A DNA stretch of 5,374 nt from Acidobacteriota bacterium (GTDB taxonomy: Bacteria; Acidobacteriota; Aminicenantia; Aminicenantales; Saccharicenantaceae): NCBI GenBank assembly GCA_003476685.1, contig DMVN01000143.1:1-5374 (forward strand), in the 5' to 3' direction. This document shows, one piece after another, positions 1,805-4,525 of the stretch. The stretch's first letter is position 1, and each line of letters begins with the position of its first letter. The translations under genes and the position numbers were made by a program. The notes under the pieces were generated by a model. It worked only from the letters and a program-made list of their open reading frames with translations. It was not told the DNA's origin and ran no database searches.

Positions 1805-3154
1805 ATGAAACTGCTTAAACTCAACATTTCTGGTGTCCGGGGGCTGGTGGGCCAGACTATAACCCCGGAGCTGGTCATCGATTTTGCCTCGGCTTTTGGC
1901 ACGATGCTGCCAGCCGGTCCGGTCCTGGTGGGCCGCGACAGCCGCAGGTCGGGACCGATGGTCCAGGAAGCAGTGATGTCGGCCCTTCTTTCTACCGGCC
2001 ACGAGGTCATAAATCTCGGGATTTGCCCCACCCCGGTTATCCAGTTCCTGGTCAGGCAGCACCGGGCAGTCGGGGCGGTGTCCATCACTGCCGGCCACAA
2101 CCCGGCCGAGTGGAACGCTCTGAATTTTATCAACAGCCAGGGCACCTACCTCAATGAATTTCAGGGGTCGGAGCTTCTTGACATTTACCACCTGGGTCGC
2201 TTTGCCCACCAGAAATTGAAAAAGTCCCCGGCGGTGGTGTCAGAGCTCAACCCGGAAGAAGTCTATTTTTCCTGGCTCAAGACCAGGCTACGAACCGCCG
2301 AAATCAGCCGGACCCGGTTCAAGGTGGTGGTTGACCCCTGTAACGGGGCCGGGGCCAGGCTGGTCAATAAATTCTTCGCCGCCCTCGGCTGTGAGCTGGT
2401 GGCTGTCAATAACGAACCAAACGGCTATTTCCCGCATGACCCAGAACCGCGACCGAGAAATGCGGGTGAAGTGGCTTCCCTGGTCCGGGCCACGGGGGCT
2501 AACTCAGGCTTCTTACTTAACAGCGACGTCAGCCGGGTGTCGCTGGTAACCGAGACCGGGGAAACCCTGTCGGAAGAATACACCCTGCCGGTGGTGGCCG
2601 GATATTATCTGGAGCGCCAGCCCGGGGCCGTGGTTACCAGCCTGTCTACTTCCAGGATGATAGAAGAAGTCGCCAGCCGCTTCCAGGTCCCCGTCCTTAG
2701 AACCAGGGTCGGCCAGTCGGCCCTGGTTCAGACGATGCTTCAGGAAGGGGCAGCCCTGGCCGGAGAAGGCAGCGGCGGACTGGCCCTGGCCGATTTCCAG
2801 CCGGCTTTTGACGGCTTTGTGGTCATGGGACTCATCCTGGAAATGATGGCCGTCAGGCAGAAAAAACTATCGGAACTGGTAAAAGCTCTGCCCCGCTATC
2901 ATATCGTCAAGGATAAAATTATCTGCCCGCCGCACCGGCTGCACTCTCTGGTGGCCGAAACCAGGAAGCTCTACCCGCGGGCTGAAATCAATTCGCTGGA
3001 CGGATTACACTTCACTTTGAAGGATACCTGGGTTCACGTCCGGGCTTCCAGCACCGAGCCTCTCATCCGCATCATTGCTGAGAGTGCTTCGGCCGCCAGG
3101 GCCCAGCTGGAAGTAGACAAGGTGGTAACGTTCTTAAACCGTCTCCTCGGGTAA
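1805..3154 (+). CDS. Phosphohexomutase-family protein lacking the catalytic serine and Mg loop (predicted pseudoenzyme)
   Basis: The 449-residue product spans all four domains of an alpha-D-phosphohexomutase (phosphoglucomutase / phosphomannomutase / GlmM superfamily) and is presumably cytosolic. The ATG is the first possible start after an in-frame stop at 1790-1792. The N-terminus (SGVRG, 9-13) matches the next gene, although no clear ribosome binding site precedes it. The active-site serine motif TASHNP is TAGHNP (95-100), with glycine at 97. The magnesium loop DxDxDR is NSDVSR (239-244), losing two of three aspartates. In contrast, the sugar-binding GEGSGG (320-325) and the phosphate-binding RASSTEP (413-419) with R422 are intact. 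Without the serine that carries the phosphate and the metal that activates it, normal mutase chemistry is not expected, yet the frame is intact and full length. It ends three bases before its active paralogue, so a regulatory or structural partner role is inferred. An altered activity cannot be excluded. Confidence 0.88.
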   Translation: MKLLKLNISGVRGLVGQTITPELVIDFASAFGTMLPAGPVLVGRDSRRSGPMVQEAVMSALLSTGHEVINLGICPTPVIQFLVRQHRAVGAVSITAGHNPAEWNALNFINSQGTYLNEFQGSELLDIYHLGRFAHQKLKKSPAVVSELNPEEVYFSWLKTRLRTAEISRTRFKVVVDPCNGAGARLVNKFFAALGCELVAVNNEPNGYFPHDPEPRPRNAGEVASLVRATGANSGFLLNSDVSRVSLVTETGETLSEEYTLPVVAGYYLERQPGAVVTSLSTSRMIEEVASRFQVPVLRTRVGQSALVQTMLQEGAALAGEGSGGLALADFQPAFDGFVVMGLILEMMAVRQKKLSELVKALPRYHIVKDKIICPPHRLHSLVAETRKLYPRAEINSLDGLHFTLKDTWVHVRASSTEPLIRIIAESASAARAQLEVDKVVTFLNRLLG

Positions 3155-3157
3155 AAA

Positions 3158-4525
3158 ATGAGAAAGAGATTTCCCTTAAAAGTCAGCATCTCCGGAGTCA
3201 GGGGAATAATCGGGGAAAGCCTGACCCCGCAGATTGCGGCCCGGTTCGCCTCGGCCTTTGGCACCTACATAGGCCAGGGGCCGGTGCTGGTCGGTCAGGA
3301 CACCCGGCCCTCGGGAACCATGCTGAAAAAGGCCGCTCTGAGCGGTCTGCTGGCTACCGGCTGCCAGCCGGTCGAAGTGGGTGTTCTGCCCATCCCCACC
3401 ATTCTTTTTCTGACCCGCGAGAAACAGGCCCGGGGAGCGGTGGTCATAACTGCCAGTCACAACCCGCCTGAATGGAACGGCCTTAAGTTTATCGGGCCGG
3501 AAGGACTTTACCTGCGCAGTTCTCAGGTGGAAGAATTCCTGGACATTTTCCACCAGGGCGAGTTCACCTTCATCCCAGCAGAAAGAATCAAGCCGGTCAT
3601 CCAGGAAAAAAATGCCGGCCAGCTCCACTTGAAAAAAATTCTGGCCCACGTTAAGGTCAATTCCATCCGCCGCCGTAAATTCCGGGTGGTGGCTGACTGC
3701 GCCAACGAGGCCGGGGCCACCCTGCTCCCGCAGCTGCTGCAGGAGCTGGGTTGCGACAGCCTGCTGCTAAATACCAACCTGAGTGGTCAGTTTGCTCACC
3801 AGTCGGAGCCAGTGCCGGAAAACCTGGGAGAGCTCTGCCGCCGGGTCAAAGAATTCGGGGCTGACCTGGGCCTGGCCCAGGATGCCGATGCCGACCGGCT
3901 GGCCCTGGTTGATGAAAAAGGACGGGCCCTGGGAGAAGACCTGACCCTGGCTCTGGCCGTGCAGCACGGGCTGAAGAAAAAAAGAGGCCCGGTGGTGGTC
4001 AACCTGTCGGCTTCCATGGCCATTGAGGAGCTGGCTGCCAGGTTCCGGGTTCCCGTCATCAGGACCAAAATTGGCGAAATTAACGTGGTTGAAGCCATGC
4101 TGGAACACGGGGCGGTCATCGGGGGTGAGGGCAACGGCGGGGTTATCTGGCCGGAAATTCACCCCTGCCGCGATTCTCTGACAGCTACCGCTCTGATGCT
4201 GGAAATGCTGGCTGAAAGCCAGGAGCCGCTTTCAGCCCTGGCTGCCGCCTTCAGGACCTACCATCTGGTCAAGGACAAAATGGACTGCCCGGCCGAGCTG
4301 GCCTTCAGGGCGGTGGTGGAATTGAGGCATCGCTACCAGGGAGAGAACATCTCCACTCTGGACGGGCTCAAGATCAGCTGGCCCGACTCCTGGGTGCACC
4401 TCAGGCCTTCTAACACTGAGCCCATAATCCGGCTGTTAGCCGAATCCCCCTCGGCCGCCCGCAGCCGCCGGCTGATTGAAAATTTCAAAAAAGAAATAAA
4501 AAAGATCATCCGCCAGCTTGCCTGA
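3158..4525 (+). CDS. glmM: Alpha-D-phosphohexomutase, archaeal-type GlmM / phosphomannomutase-like
   Basis: This 455-residue cytosolic enzyme is predicted to move phosphate between C6 and C1 of a hexose phosphate through a phosphoserine and a bisphosphate intermediate. All key elements are present: SGVRG (12-16), GQDTRPSG (46-53), TASHNP (98-103) with catalytic S100, DADADR (242-247) for Mg2+, GEGNGG (323-328) for sugar recognition and RPSNTEP (416-422) for phosphate binding. The GEGNGG loop and the compact length point to the archaeal-type GlmM/phosphomannomutase branch rather than the GEQSGH bacterial GlmM branch. The substrate could be glucosamine-, mannose- or glucose-phosphate, so the symbol is provisional. 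In domain 2 it reads CANEAGA (181-187) where family members usually have a NGAG motif, which the upstream paralogue keeps. It starts three bases after that paralogue, with no obvious Shine-Dalgarno, which suggests translational coupling and balanced amounts of the two proteins. Confidence 0.93.
   Translation: MRKRFPLKVSISGVRGIIGESLTPQIAARFASAFGTYIGQGPVLVGQDTRPSGTMLKKAALSGLLATGCQPVEVGVLPIPTILFLTREKQARGAVVITASHNPPEWNGLKFIGPEGLYLRSSQVEEFLDIFHQGEFTFIPAERIKPVIQEKNAGQLHLKKILAHVKVNSIRRRKFRVVADCANEAGATLLPQLLQELGCDSLLLNTNLSGQFAHQSEPVPENLGELCRRVKEFGADLGLAQDADADRLALVDEKGRALGEDLTLALAVQHGLKKKRGPVVVNLSASMAIEELAARFRVPVIRTKIGEINVVEAMLEHGAVIGGEGNGGVIWPEIHPCRDSLTATALMLEMLAESQEPLSALAAAFRTYHLVKDKMDCPAELAFRAVVELRHRYQGENISTLDGLKISWPDSWVHLRPSNTEPIIRLLAESPSAARSRRLIENFKKEIKKIIRQLA

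Follow-up and report, generated by a model that had tools for sequence, protein, structure and literature searches.

Why should a bacterium keep, beside an apparently intact phosphohexomutase, a second copy that seems to have lost the means of catalysis? The question is raised by two adjacent genes in a 5,374-nucleotide stretch of Acidobacteriota DNA, the whole of which is called the window below. The upstream gene (1805..3154; this and all other features described here are on the + strand) encodes a phosphohexomutase-fold protein of 449 aa, predicted to be catalytically dead and referred to as U. The downstream gene (3158..4525), separated from the stop codon of U by 3 bases, encodes D, a phosphohexomutase of 455 aa with intact catalytic motifs.

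A tandem pair with one altered catalytic site

The open reading frame check of the window found both frames full length at these coordinates. BLASTP aligns residues 4-434 of U with 7-437 of D at 186 identities in 431 positions (43%) and 0 gaps, and the constant three-residue offset noticed in a sequence-only reading of this DNA is thus exact. Recounting the first 130 positions of the alignment again gave 69 identities, and it reproduced the key pairs G97/S100, N239/D242, S243/D246, E321/E324 and R413/R416, to which D241/D244 can be added. PF02878, PF02879, PF02880 and PF00408 occur in this order in both proteins, all above cut-off, placing them in the alpha-D-phosphohexomutase superfamily; the predicted models match solved members of the superfamily along their length, that of U being confident (pLDDT 93). 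The nearest solved relatives of both, by sequence and structure, are archaeal-type phosphohexomutases (TIGR03990; 9du5 from T. kodakarensis and 1wqa from P. horikoshii), which share fold, length and motifs with the pair. Among the matches listed, these enzymes have the serine and the metal loop intact, whereas U lacks both. No RNA family, riboswitches included, was found in the window at Rfam gathering scores, and scans for promoters and terminators were uninformative, with 3 sites of the first kind where 1.3 would be expected and 7 of the second where 7.3 would be.

In U the codon for Gly97 (2093..2095) stands at the phosphoserine position, giving TAGHNP in place of the S/T-x-S-H-N-P motif of active phosphohexomutases, and the loop N239-S-D-V-S243-R244 (2519..2536) replaces the metal loop D-x-D-x-D-R. 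The loss of the phosphoserine and of two of the three magnesium-binding aspartates, the latter to Asn and Ser, was borne out by a residue recount. Three further changes at conserved positions, absent from the earlier reading, are N107 for the conserved Lys (K110 in D), Q304 for E307 and F335 for R338. Both ligand loops had been described as kept; this holds for the phosphate-binding loop R413-A-S-S-T417 (3041..3055) and mostly for the sugar loop, GEGSG (residues 320-324, 2762..2776), which has Ser for Asn. D carries the predicted phosphoserine Ser100 (TASHNP, codon at 3455..3457), the metal loop D242-A-D-A-D-R247 (3881..3898), the sugar loop GEGNG (residues 323-327, 4124..4138) and the phosphate-binding loop R416-P-S-N-T420 (4403..4417). 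With 509.6 bits D passes the cut-off of 439 for the TIGR03990 Arch_GlmM equivalog, and U, with 422.2 bits, falls under it, yet a U protein from another locus (L133) scores 452.0 bits despite its Gly. D is predicted to be a working mutase.

Catalytic residues among the relatives

We compared 306 distinct relatives, 159 of U and 147 of D. Members of two-gene loci were labelled by gene order, the first being U, and one-ORF loci by profile score; two singletons that the profile score assigned to D (L126 and L178) were counted as U after residue inspection, one locus (L157) was labelled by hand, and ORFs of less than 360 aa were excluded from the counts. The serine together with all three metal aspartates was found in 147 of 147 distinct D, as in D of the window, versus 0 of 159 distinct U. 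Since 80 loci (retained from 156) had been found with U motifs, so that their Gly is partly selected for, the sets gathered otherwise are reported separately; the same test gives 0/114 for U and 107/107 for D. One of the findings that the sequence-only reading had named as refuting it, an upstream copy in which serine and metal loop are both normal, is thus absent among the 159. Some form of the inactivated pattern recurs in all of them and is therefore not due to chance.

The exact form of this pattern varies. Loss of part of the catalytic set is general, but the particular combination of Gly with N-D-S at the metal positions is found in 87 of 159 distinct U (54 of the 57 from the class sets), and other branches have D-D-E, S-D-G, N-D-D or D-D-D. 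The idea that every U carries an NSDxS signature was rejected: the D profile, which makes no selection for U motifs, also brought up U proteins with TGSHN and NIDGDR, and with HDADGER. Gly is present in 150 of 159 distinct U, the serine is kept in seven and D-D-D in three. These exceptions include deep-branching U in which the serine is kept and the first Asp is changed to Asn (6 proteins) or Gly is combined with all three Asp (3 proteins); such partial retention of the serine or of the full metal site counts against the explanation that we favor below. The conserved Lys remains in just 42 of 159 U, and H98 in all 159. For R12, D336, R413, T417 and R422 conservation is 95% or higher in U and D alike, and U has conserved residues of its own, Y154 (128/159) and Q304 (135/159). 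U is a conserved paralogue and very probably mutase-dead.

Co-occurrence, descent and gene neighborhood

Of 142 genomes searched in the class, 62 gave a match, and both copies are present in all of these. Two or more copies were judged there by search matches, with residues read in all but a few genomes (e.g., G079 and G093); in G013, G054, G055, G069 and G071 the locus shows the second copy just as a weaker or partial ORF. The same is true of 36 of 37 matching genomes in a sample of the phylum (396 searched). In the phylum to which a Kiritimatiellae genome belongs, 288 genomes were searched and 50 of the 53 that matched have both copies, two of the 53 (G491 and G493) having first been reached by motif scan. 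As far as draft assemblies show, G499, G581 and G707 have D without U, which counts against the favored explanation, and in the draft assembly G102 an N-terminally cut D was seen and no U; in some species, therefore, D may function by itself.

In 122 of 135 distinct two-gene loci U comes first with a gap of at most 100 bases, and 38 of these 122 have an exact 4-base overlap. The expectation that U always adjoins an active copy thus stands as near-constant co-occurrence with an intact D, but obligate adjacency was rejected: the genes lie on separate contigs in G401 and five other genomes (well inside different contigs in G497, G504, G506, G565 and G642), are separated by gaps of 1.0-1.4 kb in L149, L152 and L155, and in L157 have their order reversed, with 4 kb between them.

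Decaying frames in relatives had been named as a possible objection. Damaged frames are indeed seen in a few draft genomes, in either copy: U of G041 contains a TAA, G071 has two, and D is split in G007 and in G331. They are probably assembly noise. Among nine Saccharicenans genomes, of the 16 members of the genus having U, the median dN/dS of U is 0.079 and that of D 0.082, each from the 34 pairs of 36 that could be computed, and purifying selection on U is as strong as on D. On sequence evidence, U and D are an ancient conserved pair with no decay, and the idea that U is a pseudogene or artefact was rejected on its conservation and dN/dS. Such a decaying duplicate or assembly artefact, to which the few broken frames might point, has next to no probability, given that in most genomes, across several phyla, the frame of U is open and normal in length, and given the confident predicted fold.

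In a tree of 127 chosen pair members a single branch sets U apart as one clade of 64 rows with an SH-aLRT of 99.7, a value from a quick search and not a bootstrap. No branch sets D apart in this way, the archaeal outgroup being placed among its members; the tree therefore does not fix where the duplication lies. With two distant outgroups from the pair's own genomes, U forms two groups at an unresolved root, and the 63 D form one group with support of 90. U and D probably arose by a single ancient duplication.

Neighbors were counted in the longest locus per distinct U, that is in 107 loci of 4.5 kb or more, including those that supplied probes. A GHMP kinase lies near the pair in 25 loci, a NagA-like protein in 18, NagB in 15, and any of the three in 46; 61 loci have no NagA, NagB or GHMP probe match and 49 no probe match at all; this varied neighborhood counts against the favored explanation. 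A smaller count covered 74 loci and left out most of those of Saccharicenans and f2. Also against the explanation, the NagA-like proteins of f6 score 160.5 and 152.1 bits, under the NCBIfam cut-off of 225.65. On the same side, nagA lies about 18 kb from the pair in eight Saccharicenans genomes; neither nagA nor nagB was found above cut-off in the 80%-complete genome of the window. TatC or LpxI stands beside the pair in some Kiritimatiellae/Lentisphaerae loci, a further part of the varied neighborhood. The neighboring genes are pointing to sugar-1-phosphate or amino-sugar metabolism for the pair.

Possible roles of the upstream protein

Phosphoryl transfer in this superfamily requires the phosphoserine and the magnesium site. 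U is accordingly predicted to be incapable of it, while its retained phosphate and sugar loops could still hold a sugar phosphate or bisphosphate. Such retention has a parallel in vertebrate PGM5 (aciculin), an inactive paralogue of this fold that is reported still to bind Glc-1-P (PMC7761743). PGM5 differs from U in being eukaryotic and PGM1-like, herring PGM5 keeps the serine and the metal site, and U does not belong to that group (27.9 bits to PGM5 versus 253.4 bits to the archaeal enzyme).

We regard it as probable, by a modest measure, that D is the catalyst and U a dead, sugar-phosphate-binding partner subunit that modulates it, as GlgD does GlgC. The two would form a heteromer, in which ligand at the dead site may raise or gate the activity of D or alter its choice of substrate; by converting sugar 1-phosphates and sugar 6-phosphates into each other the pair would link a GHMP sugar-1-kinase to NagA/NagB, and amino-sugar use may be its role in at least part of its range. 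Like U and D, of which the apparently dead paralogue stands beside the intact one and is co-retained with it, GlgC/GlgD, the ADP-glucose pyrophosphorylase of Firmicutes, is a gene pair of sugar-phosphate metabolism; GlgD is described as inactive and modulating GlgC (PMC9093745). Similarly, the trypanosome prozymes of AdoMetDC and deoxyhypusine synthase are described as dead paralogues, each of which hetero-oligomerises with the live enzyme and activates it (PMC5201418; PMC3663545). Both precedents concern unrelated enzymes, the prozymes being also eukaryotic, and the heterotetramer and the activation are shown there, whereas for U and D a heteromer is a proposal. Another family member that serves a phosphohexomutase is the Glc-1,6-bisphosphate synthase Slr1334 (cd05800; PMC9426568). 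Slr1334 is an active enzyme, and this function was set aside for U because residues presumably required for the transfer chemistry are missing from it.

Alternatively, U may be a different enzyme, its N-S-D-x-S-R loop and GEGSG forming a new metal-independent site for a related sugar phosphate. The residue set of Gly and N-D-S is fixed rather than drifting where it occurs, above all in the class sets, and Y154 and Q304 are conserved in U. We nevertheless think this unlikely: a loop that differs between branches would be strange in a single new active site, several of the residues common to U and D hold the substrate in this family, and we know of no neofunctional precedent in the superfamily. 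Slightly less likely again is a stand-alone sugar-phosphate sensor or scaffold with a partner other than D. The fold can partner other proteins, the relative GlmM binding the cyclase CdaA (complexes 7olh, 7ojs and 9g69), and the five genomes with unlinked genes would suit this; but U nearly always occurs with D, mostly abutting or overlapping it, while other neighbors change across lineages.

That U is still an active mutase, another residue accepting the phosphate, appears quite improbable. The P. aeruginosa S108A mutant kept some activity, which favors such a possibility and counts against the explanation that we prefer; the three U with all Asp and the seven with Ser also favor the former. 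On the other side, activity was not detectable in fungal S69A (AGM1) and was absent in human S64A/T (all reported in PMC6096347). The prevalence of Gly, its coupling in 87 U to the same loss of two metal Asp, and the rarity of the Lys also speak against activity.

Returning to the partner-subunit explanation, we would extend it with less confidence, at somewhat under an even chance, to a two-subunit phosphohexomutase of several bacterial phyla, derived from one ancient duplication, in which the dead subunit reads sugar phosphates in its former active site and gates the live one where the use of sugar 1-phosphates and amino sugars begins; catalysis would have been lost by more than one route, at the serine or at the metal site, as if inactivity itself had been selected. 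No description of a bacterial dead/live phosphohexomutase pair was found among the open-licence papers searched. Among those listed, the public names of these proteins are mostly phosphoglucosamine mutase or phosphomannomutase, and therefore predictions of sugar metabolism may credit a dead protein with activity in genomes of Acidobacteriota, Armatimonadetes and Kiritimatiellae/Lentisphaerae/Verrucomicrobia. Should U indeed control D, a textbook enzyme family would gain a heteromeric member, and uncultured bacteria would provide a system of the prozyme kind, ancient enough for different stages of catalytic loss to be found in living lineages.

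Gene content of the window and residues distinguishing the two mutase copies

The window of 5374 bases, which is the entire contig C70 of a draft genome (1.93 Mb, 80% complete), contains four genes: an M20 family amidohydrolase (144-1493), the upstream phosphohexomutase-fold protein U (1805-3154), its downstream paralogue D (3158-4525), and, 3' of D, the start of a fourth protein with 75% identity to a 1126-aa relative at locus L035. A protein of that relative's group, from locus L036, has glycoside hydrolase 38 domains. Both U and D possess all four phosphohexomutase domains. 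D is not the sole mutase of the cell, since the genome also encodes a standard GlmM on contig C233 (510.1 bits against the NCBIfam cut-off of 447.55) and, on contig C211, a family member above no NCBIfam cut-off. The latter (L003:517-1911), the fourth member in this genome, has the motif TASFNP, in which Phe replaces His after the serine.

The alignment of U with D spans 431 residues, has 43% identity, and is free of gaps. The 69 identities that the sequence-only reading had counted across the first 130 aligned residues were confirmed by recount, all residue pairs named there are correct, and U has indeed lost the phosphoserine and two of the three Mg-binding aspartates (Gly97, Asn239, and Ser243 in U versus Ser100, Asp242, and Asp246 in D). 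Additional changes are Asn107/Lys110, Gln304/Glu307, and Phe335/Arg338; studies of the P. aeruginosa enzyme make the Lys an acid/base candidate. Over the full set of distinct sequences, 14 positions have a residue that at least 90% of D share and fewer than 35% of U have; Ser97, both Asp, and the sites of Lys, Glu, and Arg belong to these 14. Residue 154 of U (window 2264-2266) is Tyr in 128 of 159 U and His in 31, and His in 99% of D.

Conservation and co-occurrence of U and D

Relatives were collected from a class sample (142 genomes, searched with the U protein), a phylum sample (396 genomes, searched with a D profile), 288 genomes from the phylum of one Kiritimatiellae genome (same profile), and named genomes scanned by motif, which gave 156 relatives, of which the best 80 were kept. 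After removal of duplicates and ORFs shorter than 360 aa, and reassignment of two mislabelled singletons, the final set comprised 306 proteins (159 U and 147 D).

The serine together with all three aspartates is present in 147/147 distinct D and in none of the 159 distinct U, so that none of these U combines a normal serine with a normal metal loop; in the sets not selected by the U motif the counts are 107/107 and 0/114. The Gly-for-Ser change holds in 150 U, but seven retain Ser, and Ala and Thr occur once each. Likewise, the metal loop is not uniformly altered: the Ser-keeping U have N-D-D (six) or T-D-G (one) at the three Asp positions, and three U combine Gly with complete D-D-D. His98 is invariant (159/159). 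Two D copies have other motifs damaged (L165:1093-2451, ASDHP and GSGGNGG; L218:1665-3032, TASQHP and DPDGDS), and thus D may be degenerating in these lineages.

Both copies were found in all 62 class-sample genomes with a match, the second being partial or weak in five; the other 80 of the 142 had no match to the U protein at the search threshold. The same holds for 36 of 37 matching genomes in the phylum sample (in the exception, G102, D is cut at the N-terminus) and for 50 of 53 in the Kiritimatiellae phylum, only D being seen in G499, G581, and G707. One Aminicenantia genome, G098, has two U-D pairs (L075 and L076). In 122 of 135 distinct two-gene loci U precedes D with a gap of at most 100 bases, including an exact 4-base overlap in 38, these small gaps being approximate because D starts were set to the first in-frame start codon. 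Adjacency to an active copy is not universal: gaps of 101-500 bases (nine loci) and 1.0-1.4 kb (three) also occur, L157 has the reversed order with D 4 kb before U, and in five genomes U and D lie intact on separate contigs, well inside them. Because of these five genomes, co-retention of the two copies is not just linkage.

A quick maximum-likelihood analysis covered 127 pair members together with two archaeal outgroups; in the resulting tree, all 64 U fall on one side of a branch (SH-aLRT 99.7), and the outgroup is placed among D. When two distant outgroups from the window's own genome were added, 63 D formed one group (support 90), and U was split in two at an unresolved root. By eye, branching within U parallels that within D, as would be expected if the two genes had been inherited or transferred together. 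The median dN/dS is 0.079 for U and 0.082 for D; purifying constraint on U is equal in strength to that on D. A pair titled Armatimonadetes (L107) is placed inside Aminicenantia, and a protein named Heimdallarchaeota (P0055) is 57% identical to U; these are probably misbinned contigs or recent transfers.

Genomic context of the pair

The gene order in Aminicenantia family f6 is nagA-like, U, D, nagB; in f2, nagA follows D in two loci, and in f8 and f11 a NagB-GHMP kinase fusion, possibly a kinase-deaminase for amino sugars, stands after D (directly so at L072:7784-9634 and L077:11490-13337). In Saccharicenans, the pair shares its contig with nagA in eight genomes, at a distance of about 18 kb, and nagB is on other contigs. 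The pair is preceded by a GHMP kinase-GlmU-like nucleotidyltransferase fusion and an MFS transporter in Blastocatellia-type genomes, and by a galactokinase-like gene in others. The fusion at L136 (1910-4459), with a GHMP sugar kinase part and the MFS transporter gene after it, resembles FKP-type fusions. TatC is encoded upstream of the pair at Kiritimatiellae/Lentisphaerae loci L120, L125, L138, and L162.

A BLAST comparison of a few reference proteins with the 107 loci measuring 4.5 kb or more found GHMP kinase in 25, NagA in 18, NagB in 15, and a GH2 enzyme in 17; 46 loci have one or more of the first three, and 49 had no match to these probes. These neighbours suggest that the pair stands between a maker of sugar 1-phosphate and users of sugar 6-phosphate, the substrate being putative.

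A possible heteromeric mutase

Lacking the serine and a complete metal site, U very likely has no mutase activity. In one report, activity of the fungal AGM1 S69A variant was undetectable, its structure with Glc-1,6-bisphosphate contained no metal, and P. aeruginosa S108A had residual activity (PMC6096347). Inactive PGM5 still holds Glc-1-P (PMC7761743), and the dead partner GlgD can boost the efficiency of its active partner, also with GlcN-1-P (PMC9093745). Given these precedents and the predicted inactivity of U, the best model would be a heteromeric mutase with D as the catalytic subunit and U as a dead, ligand-binding one.

Among the best 120 of 1966 proteins (E 1e-60; 7998 candidates scored), the named ones are mostly phosphoglucosamine mutase or phosphomannomutase, and a few are called hypothetical protein. 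No description of a bacterial dead phosphohexomutase/phosphoglucosamine mutase pair was found in open-licence literature. A dead paralogue beside a live enzyme is an already known kind of arrangement; such a pair within the phosphohexomutase superfamily and across bacterial phyla appears to be new.
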